64,000 nucleotides of DNA from Clostridioides sp. ES-S-0054-01 (GTDB lineage Bacteria; Bacillota; Clostridia; Peptostreptococcales; Peptostreptococcaceae). Below are positions 55,431 through 64,000 of this stretch, piece after piece. Numbering within the stretch: the first letter of the stretch is position 1; every line of letters begins with the position of its first letter. The DNA lies in contig CP067346.1 in assembly GCA_021561035.1 (NCBI GenBank), positions 1,705,001-1,769,000 of the forward strand, written 5' to 3'. Under the pieces are notes generated by a model. It was not told where the DNA came from. It made no database searches and was given only the letters and a program-made list of their open reading frames with translations. A program made the position numbers and the translations under genes.

Positions 55431-55697
55431 TTATAAGGCTACAACAGCCCATTCTTTACACTGAGCAATTCTTTTTCCATCATCACCTTGTTCTTTATCA
55501 TATGCAAATTGATTAAGCATTTCACATGGAAATGCATCACATAGACCACAATGTGTAAGGTTTTTATCTTCACAACAGGATTTTACAGGACATTCTTCAC
55601 CCCAAAAAGGCTTGTCAATACATGTACATCCTTTACAATTGACTTTTTCCTTGTACTCACATTCATAACACAAAATTCCACATCTTGATTCTATCAT
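55431..55697 (-). CDS. DUF3795 family Cys-rich protein
   Basis: 88 residues, ten cysteines. CGILCYECEYKEKVNCKGC (6-24) and CPVKSCCEDKNLTHCGLCDAFPC (about 36-58) are zinc- or cluster-type motifs characteristic of DUF3795. Role unknown. AAGGAGTGAC precedes the ATG. A broken AraC-type gene lies just upstream. Confidence 0.85.
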   Translation of the reverse strand: MIESRCGILCYECEYKEKVNCKGCTCIDKPFWGEECPVKSCCEDKNLTHCGLCDAFPCEMLNQFAYDKEQGDDGKRIAQCKEWAVVAL

Positions 55698-59934: not shown

Positions 59935-59968
59935 AAAAAATATCATCCTTTTTAGAACGATATTTTTT
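59935..59968 (-). terminator. terminator of AraC/PocR gene
   Basis: AAAAAATATC (59935-59944) pairs with GATATTTTTT (59959-59968), which touches the stop codon of the regulator. Confidence 0.65.
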
Positions 59969-60707
59969 AGTTATAAATATTCTTATATTCAATTGGTGTA
60001 AGGTTATTAAACTTTTTAAAAACCATGCTATAGTAATTTTGACTATTGAATCCAACTAGTACAGCAACATCTAAAATAGATAAATCTTTTTCTAATAGAT
60101 ATTTTTTACTTTTTTCAACTCTAACTTTATTTAAAAAATTAGTAAAAGTATATCCACTTTCTTTCTTAAACAGAGAACAAAAATAGCTTTTATTAAGTTG
60201 TAGGTCATTACATATGTCGCTTACTGTTATATCTTCTGAGTAGTTTTTATGAATATAATCTATAGTTTTCTTTACATAAAAACTAAGAGCTGGCTTATGT
60301 TTCATTTTATCCTGGCATATTTCTGATAAAAGATTTGATATGTAATCTAAACATGATAAGGGCTTAAGTGGTATATTAGAAAATTCTATATCATTATTTA
60401 TACATGATTTAAAAGGACCTACAATGAAGTAACCACTTGAGACATCAAACTTATGTATAGGCATAACTAAAAAATGTAGGTCATCACAAAAACTTAATAT
60501 TATATAGGATAGATTTTTATTAGATATAAAATCTGTACTGTTTATATTGTTAAATATATTTAAACTTGAGAAATATATTTCTAAAGTAGTGTCATATCCA
60601 ATACTGCAAATCTCTTTTAAATCCTTACTAAATACCTTTGTTGGAATATTACAACAGTCAAAAAAATCGTTGACGATGAGTTTCATATCATCTTTAAAAT
60701 CTTTCAA
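59967..60707 (-). CDS. AraC-family regulator with PocR-type sensor domain
   Basis: 246 residues. Residues about 1-125 look like the PocR ligand domain; it starts IVNDFFDCCNIPTKVFSKDL and has three or more cysteines (Cys18, Cys19, Cys31). The C-terminal 100 residues are two AraC HTH motifs (ITVSDICNDLQLNKSYFCSLFKK, and ILDVAVLVGFNSQNYYSMVFKK). TTG start with GAGGTGA. It is divergent from the NifH-like/FecBCD operon and probably activates it. Confidence 0.85.
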   Translation of the reverse strand: MKDFKDDMKLIVNDFFDCCNIPTKVFSKDLKEICSIGYDTTLEIYFSSLNIFNNINSTDFISNKNLSYIILSFCDDLHFLVMPIHKFDVSSGYFIVGPFKSCINNDIEFSNIPLKPLSCLDYISNLLSEICQDKMKHKPALSFYVKKTIDYIHKNYSEDITVSDICNDLQLNKSYFCSLFKKESGYTFTNFLNKVRVEKSKKYLLEKDLSILDVAVLVGFNSQNYYSMVFKKFNNLTPIEYKNIYN

Positions 60708-60803
60708 AAAATCACCTCATTTAAATTTATACAAATATTTTTATAAAAAAACAAATATAGTTAAGAATTAAAAAAATATATCAATTAAAATAGTTATTGC
60801 GAA

Positions 60804-60818
60804 TGATAATTAATTTCG
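60804..60818 (+). promoter_or_regulatory. possible Fur box
   Basis: TGATAATTAATTTCG shares TGATAAT and part of the second half (four of seven bases) with the 7-1-7 Fur consensus. It is 40 bases ahead of the NifH-like gene, in the regulator-to-operon gap. A weak match only, supported by the iron-type transporter. Confidence 0.35.
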
Positions 60819-60855
60819 TTAAATAATATTATGATGTAAGAGAGGTAGAAAGTCA

Positions 60856-61605
60856 ATGAAAAAAATAGCTATTTATGGGAAAGGAGGAATTGGAAAATCA
60901 ACAACAACTTCCAATTTATCGGCAGCACTTTCTCATTTAGGATATAAGGTAATGCAGATAGGGTGTGACCCAAAATCTGATTCCACAAAAAACTTAATGA
61001 AAGGAAAATTTATACCAACAGTTCTTGATGTAATGAAAGAAAAAAAGGAAGAACTAGAGCTTGATGATATAGTGTTTGAAGGTTATAAGGGAGTGTTATG
61101 TATTGAAGCTGGAGGGCCAACTCCGGGTGTAGGTTGTGCAGGAAGAGGTATAATAGCAGCTTTTGAAAAATTGGAAGAATTAAAAGCATTTGAAATATAT
61201 AATCCAGATGTAGTAATTTATGATGTTCTAGGAGACGTTGTTTGTGGAGGTTTCTCAATGCCAATAAGAAATGGATTTGCAAAGGACGTGTACATAGTAA
61301 CTTCTGGAGAAATGATGTCAATGTACGCTGCAAGTAATATATCTTTGGCTGTAGAACAATTTAAAAATAGGGGATATGCTTCTTTAAAAGGTCTTATATT
61401 AAATGCAAAAAACGTTGAAAATGAAAGGGAATTAGTTGACAAATTGGCTGATGAAATAAAAAGTGAAGTTTTTCATTACATACCAAGAAATAAAATTGTA
61501 CAGCAGTCTGAGAATAATGGACGAACTGTTATAGAAGAAGATAAAAACAATGAAATGTCAGAAGTATATATAGAACTTGCAAATAAAATTATGCAAAATA
61601 ACTAA
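60856..61605 (+). CDS. NifH/BchL-like iron-sulfur ATPase
   Basis: 249 residues, like nitrogenase iron proteins. P-loop [14 protein letters not shown] (Lys14 in the loop); switch [10 protein letters not shown] (about 36-44); cluster cysteines Cys94 in [13 protein letters not shown] and Cys130 in [15 protein letters not shown]; then [15 protein letters not shown]. All residues needed for ATP-driven electron transfer from a [4Fe-4S] dimer are present. NifD/NifK-type partners are not in the window. GAGAGGT precedes the ATG. It leads a FecBCD-type transporter. Confidence 0.9.
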
Positions 61606-61646
61606 AAATTTATGTTTAAAATTAAGTTTATTATGGAGGAAATTTT

Positions 61647-62537
61647 ATGAAATTAAAAAAGTTATGTTCCGTATTTTTGTTTAGCTCATTAATATTAACA
61701 GGATGCTCAAAGCCATCAGATGGTGAGGTTAAAAAGACAAATAATAACGTAAATGTGGTTTCAGCTACAGTGGCAGCTACACAAGTATTAGATAAATTGG
61801 ATGCTACATTGGTAGGAATACCAACTACTAAATCTGATTTACCAGAAAAATATAAAAACTTACCAGAAGTAGGTCAGGCTATGAATCCAGACCTAGAGAT
61901 TGTAGCATCTCTAAAACCAGATGTATTTATAGTTGATAGTATGTTTAAAGAAAATGTTGAAAAAAGTATGAAAGAATATAACCTAGATACTTTTTATTTT
62001 GAGACTGGTACATATACAAAATTCCTTAAAAGTATAGAGAATTTAGGTGAAAAAATAAATAAACAGAGTGAAGCAAAAAAACTTATAGATGAATTAGAGG
62101 GAGTAGAACAATCTGTAGCAGAAAAGGCAAAGAAACAAGATAAAAAGCCAAAAGTGGCAATCTTATTTGGTGGTGGAAATAATTTTATGCTAGCTACAAA
62201 AAGTTCATATCTTGGAGATTTAGTAAAAACAGTAGGTGCTGAAAATATAGCTGATAACCTAACAGATAATGTGGAATCAGATTATATACAATTTAGTTTA
62301 GAACAAATTTTGAAAGAAAATCCAGATTATATACTTAGATTTGCACATGGAAATATTGAAGAGACTAAAAAAGCATTTGATGATTCTTTTGATAAAAACC
62401 CTGTATGGGCTACATTAGATGCAGTAAAAAATGGGAAAGTTATAGATTTAGATTCAAGTATATTTAATGTATCTGCAAATATACATGTTAAAGATTCAAT
62501 AAATAAATTGGGAGATATCTTGTATGGAGATAAATAA
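61647..62537 (+). CDS. FecB/BtuF-type substrate-binding lipoprotein
   Basis: 296 residues. Signal peptide with lipobox LILTGC (Cys20), then the periplasmic-binding-protein fold: VSATVAATQVLDKLDATLVGIPTTK, EVGQAMNPDLEIVASLKPDVFIVDS and the long linking helix. Members bind siderophores, haem or cobalamin. GGAGGAAATTTT precedes the ATG. It follows the NifH-like gene by 40 bases and goes with the permease and ATPase next to it. Confidence 0.92.
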   Translation: MKLKKLCSVFLFSSLILTGCSKPSDGEVKKTNNNVNVVSATVAATQVLDKLDATLVGIPTTKSDLPEKYKNLPEVGQAMNPDLEIVASLKPDVFIVDSMFKENVEKSMKEYNLDTFYFETGTYTKFLKSIENLGEKINKQSEAKKLIDELEGVEQSVAEKAKKQDKKPKVAILFGGGNNFMLATKSSYLGDLVKTVGAENIADNLTDNVESDYIQFSLEQILKENPDYILRFAHGNIEETKKAFDDSFDKNPVWATLDAVKNGKVIDLDSSIFNVSANIHVKDSINKLGDILYGDK

Positions 62538-62553
62538 ACTTTAGGTGAATAAT

Positions 62554-63534
62554 ATGGATAACAAAAAAATTTTATTAATAGTTACAGGTATGATAACTGT
62601 AATTGCTTTGCTAATTCTTTTTTCTACTATAGGTAGTGTAAACTTAAGCCTTAGAGAAATATTTGATGCATTGATAAATGAAAATAATCCAATGGTTACT
62701 ACAATTGTATATAAGATGAGACTACCTAGAAATATATTATCAGCATTGGTTGGAGCAAATTTAGCTGTTTCTGGTCTATTATTACAAGCTGTTATGAAAA
62801 ACCCATTAGCAGACCCTGGAATAACAGGGATATCAACTGGTGCAAGTGTAGCTGCTATTATAATATTGCTTCTATTTCCACAATACACAAGTATGCTACC
62901 AATAGTTGCTTTTATAGGAGGTCTTATATCTTGTGTAGTAGTATATCTAATGGCGTATAAAAATGGTCTTAGACCAGAAAGAATTATACTAGCTGGAGTA
63001 GCTGTAAACACTATATTAGGTGGTGTGATATCGTATTTATCAACCATGTATAGTGAAAGAATTCAAAGTGCAATGTTGTGGTTAAATGGGAGTCTGGCAA
63101 CAAAGACATGGTCTGATGTAAATATGCTGATATGGTATTCCATAATAGGTCTGATAGGAGCAATTTTTCTTATTAGAAGTGCAAATGTGCTACAATTGGG
63201 AGATGATGCAGCTACAAATCTAGGTTTTAATGTAAACAAAAGCAGGTTCATAATATCATTAGTGGCAATATTTTTAGCTGGAGTTTCTACTTCTATAGTA
63301 GGTGTTATTAGTTTTGTAGGTCTAATCGTACCACATATAACACGTATGTTACTTGGTAGTGACCATAAATATACAATCCCATTTAGTATAATACTAGGAA
63401 GCATAGTTTTATTAATTGCAGATACGTTAGCTAGGACAATCGGTGGGTCAATAGAGATTCCAGTGGGCGTTATCATGTCCATAATAGGAGGTCCATTCTT
63501 CTTATATTTATTAAGAAAGAGAGGAAGTTATTAA
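62554..63534 (+). CDS. FecCD/BtuC-type ABC permease
   Basis: 326 residues with about ten membrane segments. Signatures: RLPRNILSALVGANLAVSGLLLQAVMKNPLADPGI (about 52-86), GVAVNTILGGVISYL and the C-terminal GVISFVGLIVPHITRMLLG. Typical of iron-siderophore, haem or vitamin B12 permeases. ATG 62554 was chosen (GTG 62545 lies on the AGGTGA site). Its stop overlaps the ATPase start (TAATG). Confidence 0.95.
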   Translation: MDNKKILLIVTGMITVIALLILFSTIGSVNLSLREIFDALINENNPMVTTIVYKMRLPRNILSALVGANLAVSGLLLQAVMKNPLADPGITGISTGASVAAIIILLLFPQYTSMLPIVAFIGGLISCVVVYLMAYKNGLRPERIILAGVAVNTILGGVISYLSTMYSERIQSAMLWLNGSLATKTWSDVNMLIWYSIIGLIGAIFLIRSANVLQLGDDAATNLGFNVNKSRFIISLVAIFLAGVSTSIVGVISFVGLIVPHITRMLLGSDHKYTIPFSIILGSIVLLIADTLARTIGGSIEIPVGVIMSIIGGPFFLYLLRKRGSY

Positions 63535-64000
63535 TGTTCAATGTAAAAAATATTAAGATAGGTTATGAAGATAAGATTATCATAGACAACTTAAGTGTAA
63601 GTATTAAAAAAAGTGAAGTAGTATCTATATTAGGACCAAATGGTTCAGGAAAGTCTACACTTCTTAAATCATTGTCTAGAATTCTAAAAATCAGACAAGG
63701 TGACATATACATTGGTAAAAAAAATATGAAAGTTATGAGTAATAAAGAGATTTCAAGGCAAGTGGCATTATTAGCTCAACACAATGTATCTTTAAGAGAT
63801 ATAAAGGTAAAAGACTTAATATATTATGGAAGAATACCACATAAAGGTTTTTTTGAAGGCAAAAATAAGAATGATGATGAGATAGTGACTTGGGCAATGA
63901 GAAATACAGGTCTTGAAACGTATAAAGATAAGTTGGTGAGTAATCTATCTGGAGGTGAAAGACAAAGAGTATGGTTGGCAATGGCTCTTTGCCAAAAACC
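63534..64000 (+). CDS. FecE/BtuD-type ABC ATPase (cut by window end)
   Basis: The first 155 codons: Walker A LGPNGSGKST (about 34-43), VALLAQHN (Q-loop) and the signature LSGGERQRVWLAMAL. Walker B is beyond the edge. ATG 63534 overlaps the permease stop codon. It powers the permease encoded just upstream. Confidence 0.93.
   Translation, partial: MFNVKNIKIGYEDKIIIDNLSVSIKKSEVVSILGPNGSGKSTLLKSLSRILKIRQGDIYIGKKNMKVMSNKEISRQVALLAQHNVSLRDIKVKDLIYYGRIPHKGFFEGKNKNDDEIVTWAMRNTGLETYKDKLVSNLSGGERQRVWLAMALCQK

Follow-up and report, generated by a model that had tools for sequence, protein, structure and literature searches.

What does a nitrogenase-type reductase do at the head of an importer operon? 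The window, a 64,000-nt stretch of Clostridioides sp. ES-S-0054-01, a gut anaerobe of the C. difficile type (GCA_021561035.1, contig CP067346.1, positions 1,705,001 to 1,769,000 of the forward strand), ends inside such an operon. The original prediction, made from the window alone, had an intact nifH-like gene heading importer genes of the iron, haem or cobalamin type and suspected NifD and NifK partners just outside. Both claims were borne out: the nifH-like ORF is intact, and two component-1 genes, D and K, lie 0.4-2.9 kb past the window end, directly downstream of the in-window part of the operon. The features are as follows.

59967..60707, minus strand: AraC-family regulator, 246 aa, divergent from the operon (HTH_AraC and HTH_18, 63.9 bits each).
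60799..60817, plus strand: Fur-box-like site in the gap that separates the regulator from H, agreeing with the Fur-box consensus at 14 of 19 bases.
60856..61605, plus strand: H, NifH-like ATP-dependent [4Fe-4S] reductase, 249 aa (Pfam Fer4_NifH, 334.7 bits).
61647..62537, plus strand: B, predicted IsdE-like haem-binding lipoprotein, 296 aa (Peripla_BP_2; predicted ligands M79 and H234).
62545..63534, plus strand: C, FecCD-type permease, 329 aa (FecCD, 323.1 bits).
63534..64000, plus strand: A, ABC ATPase of 264 aa that runs past the window edge and ends at 64328 in the genome (complete ORF L007:4534-5328; ABC_tran, 91.4 bits for the in-window part).
64428-65705 (window-equivalent; L007:5428-6705), beyond the window: D, NifD/NifE/BchN-like, 425 aa (Oxidored_nitro, 186.9 bits).
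65707-66918 (window-equivalent; L007:6707-7918), beyond the window: K, NifK/BchB-like, 403 aa (Oxidored_nitro, 221.3 bits).

The full operon is compact and runs in the order nifH-like gene, IsdE-like binding protein, FecCD permease, ATPase, D and K. D and K are adjacent and are the only Oxidored_nitro matches in the genome (cut-off 28.6 bits). Each of the 21 distinct core loci read has importer genes together with D and K. In this count L012/L079 and L020/L070, pairs taken to be the same contig, enter once each; it leaves out the more distant clusters, L023, L076/L078, and three genomes with core K matches whose operons were not read whole (G301, G429, G438). Synteny of the gene set extends over several genera, indicating that the operon association goes far beyond chance. 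Pfam scanning of the operon neighbourhood covered 20 ORFs and 10 further proteins, and more conserved neighbours are possible. An Rfam scan of the 16-kb stretch gave no match at gathering scores, and promoter and terminator scans returned no higher a count than in shuffled sequences. Downstream of the operon lie an opposite-strand Mrp-like gene and one further gene, followed by genes read as corrinoid methyltransferase-like.

As a NifH-type ATPase with a P-loop and two cluster cysteines, H has the hallmark of the nitrogenase superfamily. K9, G10, K14, C94 and C130, which make up these two elements, are present in 21/21 family H proteins, and C94, C130 and R97 are invariant among 15 aligned sequences (one ORF as read lacks the N-terminus). 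The nearest NCBIfam models are CfbC (361.5 bits; cut-off 402) and NifH (353.1 bits; cut-off 394.35); BchL gave 219.8 bits (cut-off 345.15). The original prediction named two findings that would refute it. One, a genome lacking a component-1 partner, does not apply, as D and K are present. The other, placement among MinD/ParA ATPases, was ruled out by score, as was an Mrp assignment: beyond H (334.7 bits), PF00142 matches three more proteins in the genome, at no more than 33.2 bits, and by score H is a NifH/CfbC/BchL-type reductase. In a phylogeny with few references, none of them from CfbC/CfbD, and rooted as we chose (on an Mrp outgroup for H, at the midpoint for D and K), the clade of the whole H family was weakly supported (0.474), and the node also holding Nostoc NifH had a support of 0.999.

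We then compared D and K with the subunits of DPOR (BchL/BchN-BchB), in which the NB-cluster is held by three Cys of BchN and Asp36 of BchB, and Asp274 of BchB is the proton donor. In D, C32, C57, C115 and C149 are invariant among 16 aligned sequences. P-cluster cysteines number three in D, and none stands at the corresponding sites of the core K proteins. The site of BchB Asp36 is Thr in 14/22 K proteins, including the one here; it is His in 7/22 and Cys in 1/22, these being K proteins of more distant relatives. The Asp274 residue is not conserved, in a region where the alignment is loose. The K alignments left out K of L010, which is split over two ORFs, and of L023, a fragment. Structure models were built from L008, a C. 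difficile relative (D 97% and K 95% identical), with D and K as single chains; the modelled fold of K is most like that of BchB, the protochlorophyllide reductase subunit, and the modelled fold of D hardly discriminates (DPOR 30.6, NifEN and Mar 29.6).

H, D and K (HDK) could be assigned to none of three known enzymes. A true N2-fixing nitrogenase was rejected because its full P-cluster takes three Cys per subunit and K has none, because D and K miss the NifD (76.7 bits; cut-off 653.55) and NifK (39.6 bits; cut-off 427.3) cut-offs, and because no protein of the genome matched NifB, which cofactor synthesis requires. Identity with DPOR was rejected as well: the cut-offs of BchL, BchN (D, 49.6 bits; cut-off 419.95) and BchB (K, 101.8 bits; cut-off 490.35) are all missed, and the Asp36 ligand is not kept. 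The likeness to DPOR lies in the predicted BchB fold of K and the three BchN-type Cys of D, whereas the change of Asp36 to Thr, the unconserved Asp274 and the setting in a haem-type uptake operon set HDK apart. The F430 reductase CfbC/CfbD resembles HDK in that H has its highest NCBIfam score on CfbC and that CfbC/CfbD reduce a tetrapyrrole. However, HDK has two different component-1 subunits, and identity was rejected with H below the CfbC cut-off and D (35.1 bits) and K (41.7 bits) far below that of CfbD (268.4).

The importer was predicted correctly as to type, with a Peripla_BP_2 binding protein, a FecCD permease and an ABC ATPase, and can be narrowed from a generic to a haem-type system. 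The binding protein scored 288.1 bits on the IsdE model TIGR03659, 10.6 under the cut-off of 298.65, and its homologue in L020 (Hathewaya) passes that cut-off with 357.7 bits. Among PDB structures it matches IsdE of S. aureus best (2q8p, E 1.6e-56). M79 and H234 align with the Met and His that we take to be the axial haem ligands of IsdE; in the core binding proteins, counted without that of L012 (cut by a contig end), the His is present in 20/20 and the Met in 17/20, with Phe in its place in 3/20. NEAT haem-binding genes adjoin the operon in three core relatives, two of them with sortase. NEAT was rejected as a general marker of carriers: of the 24 carrier genomes tested, only 6 have such genes, and in two of these they lie next to the operon (loci L020 and L071). 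Three of the 24 (G439, G406 and G245) have a better IsdE match elsewhere, beside NEAT genes, and so carry Isd-type loci separate from HDK. Judged from sequence, haem as the importer substrate, and with it the link between operon and haem, appears well supported.

The regulator was predicted to be divergent, of AraC type and equipped with a PocR domain. The first two properties are as predicted; no PocR domain was matched by Pfam in the window regulator at E up to 1, and the same scan of the regulators of five relatives gave one sub-threshold match (L021, 20.7 bits; cut-off 23.9). A similar regulator stands upstream of the operon in several relatives. The predicted weak Fur-like site is present and is indeed weak: when 200 random sequences with a similar dinucleotide composition were scored against the 19-base consensus, 18 did as well. 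Upstream of the operon in 8 of the 25 other loci tested, the site is strong, with 15-17 of 19 bases and no more than 3 of 200 random sequences reaching the same score. Among the 18 core loci, a clear site is present in eight and absent in ten, including that of the window.

That one operon encodes both a haem importer and the three-part HDK enzyme, a relative of nitrogenase and DPOR, suggests oxygen-free reduction of imported haem that frees its iron. We favour, with a little more confidence than doubt, a single operon that couples haem import to ATP-driven ring reduction and serves as an anaerobic stand-in for IsdG. Judging by homology, ligand conservation and neighbours, the IsdE-like lipoprotein would bind haem and the FecCD permease and ATPase would import it. 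Judging by family, fold and cluster ligands, H, a NifH/CfbC-like [4Fe-4S] ATPase, would feed electrons of low potential into a D-K complex whose architecture is that of protochlorophyllide reductase. There, we infer, a single [4Fe-4S] cluster on three D cysteines, its fourth side open or held by K in the Thr36/His38 region, would reduce the haem macrocycle. The reduced ring would hold iron poorly, so that Fe(II) might be freed or the altered ring handed on. Iron lack may switch the operon on via Fur, with tuning by the AraC-type regulator, as the upstream sites partly support.

This arrangement recalls the Isd haem uptake system of staphylococci, which comprises NEAT proteins, IsdE, a permease, sortase and the oxygen-dependent haem oxygenase IsdG. 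The operon shares the IsdE-like binding protein and the FecCD permease, and in some relatives the adjoining NEAT and sortase genes, but HDK would occupy the place of IsdG; no ABM domain was matched in the genome. Anaerobilin synthase systems (ChuW/HutW) likewise encode anaerobic haem processing together with haem uptake, with a flavodoxin partner (PMC12670364), but differ in using radical SAM chemistry. No HutW-type protein above the curated cut-off was found in any of the 24 carrier genomes; all 24 have sub-threshold matches to the HutW model (192.6 bits versus 400 in G000), which are probably HemW-like proteins.

HDK might instead modify haem without degrading it, either to supply a reduced, chlorin-like haem cofactor or to lessen the toxicity of haem, with no role in iron release. 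The importer and the predicted K fold fit this equally well; DPOR, COR and CfbCD work in cofactor making (PMC7242693), and C. difficile is described as having other haem export and storage systems, HatRT and HsmRA (PMC12670364). However, the Fur-box-like sites in eight of the 18 core loci point to iron supply, and we consider modification alone unlikely.

The original prediction had left the substrate between an imported tetrapyrrole and a metallophore. D and K, the haem-type importer and the BchB-like K fold speak for the former. Import of another iron chelate (a siderophore) or a corrinoid, with HDK reducing that ligand or its metal, seems a rather remote prospect here: the window binding protein gave 81.0 bits on the Fe-dicitrate model, 36.8 on BtuF and 28.4 on enterobactin, far from its IsdE score, and haem ligands are kept and NEAT genes adjoin among the core loci. 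A metallophore may suit distant relatives better than the window operon. The binding proteins of more distant HDK clusters lack the haem ligand pair, those of L064 and L073, which belong to FecBCD importers, score best on enterobactin-type models, and one distant cluster has flanking genes with the annotation TonB-dependent receptor, in one case with the word 'siderophore'; the enzyme type may thus not be haem-specific.

Loci with NifEN-like and ABC genes were described in Clostridium botulinum and Alkaliphilus oremlandii by Dos Santos et al. 2012 (PMC3464626), with NifH and an ABC ATPase upstream and three P-cluster Cys in the NifE-like subunit and none in the NifN-like one; by that description they are the same kind of locus. 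Those authors proposed metal transport and cofactor assembly and left the function open. Such a NifEN-like scaffold, coupling metal import to the building of a metal cofactor, has the advantage of being in print and agrees with the NifE scores of D (88.8 bits) and K (94.9 bits). We nevertheless hold it to be very improbable, given the haem-type importer and a genome with neither a NifB match nor a further component-1 protein to receive the cofactor. The haem-type importer, NEAT neighbours and Fur sites seen here go unmentioned for those loci in the sections of that paper available to us.

Finally, a group IV-A methylthio-alkane or isethionate reductase (MarHDK/NflHDK type) belongs to the same superfamily. 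IV-A genes have been reported within or close to certain type 1 mlp methyltransferase gene clusters (PMC10418091), and genes read as methyltransferase-like lie downstream of the operon here. Those genes are set off by the opposite-strand and further genes, the single IV-A reference used (L097, taken for IV-A by its annotation) falls outside the D and K clades, no NifB was matched in the genome, and the importer is of haem type; we give this assignment hardly any credence.

Published statements on haem use by C. difficile bear on the favoured reading of haem import with reductive iron release. Knippel 2018, citing Cernat and Scott 2012, says that haem as the only source of iron apparently does not suffice for the species. 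Berges 2018 takes two points from that work, that haem sustains growth when iron is limiting and that haem fails to restore growth after a chelator. These statements count against the haem-iron reading, as do the binding protein's score under the IsdE cut-off, the Phe-for-Met changes, the rarity of NEAT genes among carriers, the Isd-type loci apart from HDK, the sub-threshold HutW matches, the altered DPOR residues, the poorly discriminating D fold and the ten core loci with no clear Fur site. Anaerobic routes to haem iron described so far include anaerobilin synthase (PMC12670364) and a HmuS-type dechelatase (PMC12583661). Among the open-licence matches listed, titles and abstract openings linked no nitrogenase-like enzyme to haem import, which is not proof of absence, and the available portions of PMC10338468, PMC11574389 and PMC10175255 held nothing bearing on an HDK/importer operon.

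How strict anaerobes get iron from haem is only partly known. We tentatively propose that Clostridioides and other clostridia carry, as an anaerobic equivalent of IsdG, a nitrogenase-superfamily enzyme that reductively dismantles or loosens haem and releases its iron without oxygen and without radical SAM. It would use a site-differentiated [4Fe-4S] cluster with a fourth ligand unlike that of DPOR, and related clusters with other binding proteins would make up a broader family of reductases, driven by ATP, that act on imported iron chelates. If true, a haem-directed member would add further chemistry to the anaerobic routes to haem iron and a new substrate to the nitrogenase-like enzymes, and would be a candidate for the route of haem entry and processing in C. 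difficile, which Knippel 2018 calls unknown.

The window ends inside the operon, and the ATPase gene A and two nitrogenase component-1 genes, D (NifD/NifE/BchN-like) and K (NifK/BchB-like), are complete in the genome continuation, where window-equivalent positions carry on the same numbering:

59967–60707, divergent from the operon, AraC-type regulator
60856–61605, + strand, H, NifH-like gene
61647–62537, + strand, B, substrate-binding lipoprotein
62545–63534, + strand, C, FecCD permease
start in the window, end at window-equivalent 64328, + strand, A, ABC ATPase
window-equivalent 64428–65705, after A, D, component-1 gene
window-equivalent 65707–66918, 1 base from D, K, component-1 gene

The 3.93-Mb genome has no Oxidored_nitro matches other than D and K (Pfam profile search), and the two bear out the original suggestion that NifD/NifK partners may lie just past the window. 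H is the sole convincing NifH of the genome (336.3 bits; the three other matches reach 33.2 at most). Because the gene next after K, read from its sequence as an Mrp-type ATPase, is convergent, the simplest transcription unit is H-B-C-A-D-K. Farther downstream, corrinoid-protein-like and UroD-type methyltransferase-like genes, likewise labeled from sequence reading (L007:10943–13215, window-equivalent 69943–72215), possibly form a methyl-transfer cluster. A small cysteine-rich DUF3795 protein is encoded at 55431–55697 in the window (34.3 bits, Pfam).

The binding protein comes closest to IsdE, scoring 288.1 bits with the IsdE model TIGR03659, 81.0 with the Fe-dicitrate model, 36.8 with BtuF, and 28.4 with enterobactin. 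This is 10.6 bits below the curated IsdE cut-off of 298.65, which a Hathewaya homologue from the same kind of operon exceeds (357.7 bits). Its best solved-structure match was S. aureus IsdE (2q8p, E 1.6e-56), followed by Listeria Lmo2184. M79 and H234, its predicted ligands, align with Met78 and His229, which we take to be the haem ligands of S. aureus IsdE. Among 20 binding proteins of core loci (close-family operons), the ligand His was present in all 20 and the Met in 17, with Phe instead in L013, L015, and L016. Among nine binding proteins of more distant clusters of H, D, and K (HDK), none has both ligands and two have the Met. Four outer-clade loci (L064, L072, L073, and L074) combine HDK with FecCD importers whose binding proteins lack both haem ligands, and the substrates of these clusters may be different iron chelates taken up by the cell.

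Relatives of D were found at 16 loci in the named genome collection, one of them (L023) a fragment; importer genes and D-K occurred together in 15 of the 16. The closest named relatives belong to C. difficile strains (93–97% identity in D), which places the window in Clostridioides. Adding genomes found with the K profile gave 21 distinct core loci; B, C, and A accompany D-K in all of them, and the order H-B-C-A-D-K is kept in 19. H is off the contig in L012, B-C-A precede H-D-K in L020, and in L071 B is found past K and a flavodoxin gene. K of L010 is split over two ORFs (L010:4838–6060), and the binding-protein gene of a Clostridioides relative, G301, matched as two pieces in different frames (C1:2499580–2500445); in some carriers, gene decay or a sequencing error may account for these splits.

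K matches of at least 220 bits, more distant members included, occurred in 10 of 391 genomes of the class sample, with K in two pieces in an eleventh (G024). In the family sample, matches of at least 440 bits occurred in 12 of 60 genomes, with fragments in a thirteenth (G397). The operon is patchily distributed even inside the genus, as one of the five Clostridioides genomes in this sample, G433, has no K match. Its locus (L090) encodes two flanking proteins 98 and 100% identical to those of the window, with their genes 1.1 kb apart. The DNA aligns at 92–94% identity up to breaks at window-equivalents 60331 and 66995; the junction shows an overlap of 17 bases, and part of the regulator gene is still aligned. 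The absence is most simply explained as loss by deletion, and therefore the operon was probably present in Clostridioides previously.

Haem-surface genes adjoin the operon in three relatives. In L020, two NEAT proteins are encoded directly upstream, one with leucine-rich repeats and the other with a cell-wall anchor, and in L022 and L071 NEAT plus sortase lie beside it. NEAT domains were found in 6 of 24 carrier genomes, adjoining the operon in two (G189 and G211, loci L020 and L071). Three carriers (G439, G406, and G245) have a stronger IsdE match elsewhere, beside NEAT genes, and therefore Isd-type loci also occur apart from the operon. Seven loci (L017, L018, L021, L022, L071, L076, and L078), three of them scanned with Pfam, have a flavodoxin gene adjoining the operon or within 2 kb of it. 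Upstream sites were scored against the sequence we assumed for the Fur-box consensus. The window has a weak site (14 of 19 bases; 18 of 200 random sequences were equally good). Eight of the 18 core loci had sites of 15–17 of 19 bases, equaled by at most 3 of 200 random sequences, and strong sites were present in none of eight loci outside the core; random sequences kept dinucleotide frequencies, the first gene was set by the analyst, and counts are uncorrected for multiple tests.

Stand-alone second K-like copies (440–484 bits) were found at three loci:

L060:8019–9257, − strand
L061:8811–10019, + strand
L062:8668–9936, + strand

No H or D was found near them in the stretches read, and some of their cluster and haem-contact residues are changed. 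The surroundings of L060 include a GGGtGRT protein (PF14057) and a gene whose NifU_N match falls slightly below cut-off; the ORFs of L061 and L062 are equal in length and order. Two plasmids carry further clusters. On pSPTER of Sporomusa termitida (L094), which carries a plasmid-borne relative of the system, an AraC regulator, a binding protein, two permeases, and an ATPase precede HDK, and annotated TonB-dependent receptor genes border the cluster. On pTS1 of the spirochaete Treponema saccharophilum (L095, 7560–15216), a divergent HDK set is accompanied by two binding proteins, one permease, and one ATPase, and in its K the position of BchB Asp36 is occupied by Cys.

Searches of the genome at E 0.001 gave no match to NifB, haem oxygenase, or an ABM/IsdG-type domain. 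A HutW-type anaerobilin synthase scored above the curated cut-off in none of the 24 carriers versus 1 of 14 control genomes; sub-threshold matches in all 24 (192.6 bits in G000, cut-off 400) were taken for putative HemW-like proteins. With no NifB match, a FeMo-type cofactor is therefore not expected. Dos Santos et al. 2012 (PMC3464626) describe loci of this type from Clostridium botulinum and Alkaliphilus oremlandii, where NifEN-like genes follow NifH and an ABC ATPase and one subunit has three cluster cysteines and the other has zero, and suggest metal transport coupled to cofactor assembly. As far as the parts of that paper available to us extend, the haem-type importer, the NEAT/sortase neighbors, the Fur sites, and the DPOR-like (dark-operative protochlorophyllide reductase) K fold are additions of the present analysis. 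Among the matches listed, no titles or abstract openings in the open-licence literature linked a nitrogenase-like enzyme with haem import.

Knippel et al. 2018 (PMC6303022) state that the mechanism of haem entry into C. difficile is unknown and that neither IsdG nor HO enzymes were found there; citing Cernat and Scott 2012, they add that haem seemingly cannot serve the species as sole iron source. Berges et al. 2018 (PMC6311696) refer to that same paper for two points: growth on haem when iron is limiting, and the failure of haem to rescue growth following a chelator. These statements come from strains that may or may not carry the operon. In a ribotype-078 coculture expression study (PMC11633334), the iron-related gene table includes 'NifH' (J5O10_08590) and 'iron ABC transporter permease' (J5O10_08600), candidate copies of this operon's genes whose tags fit.

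The kinds of transporter and enzyme are well supported, and we infer the haem reduction reaction and iron release. Besides another imported chelate, rival readings are that HDK modifies haem without releasing iron, that D-K is a cofactor scaffold, or that HDK is a sulfur-type reductase. The best-supported mechanism is haem import with ATP-driven reduction of the haem ring, in which H and D-K would reduce the imported ring, weakening iron binding so that Fe(II) would be freed.
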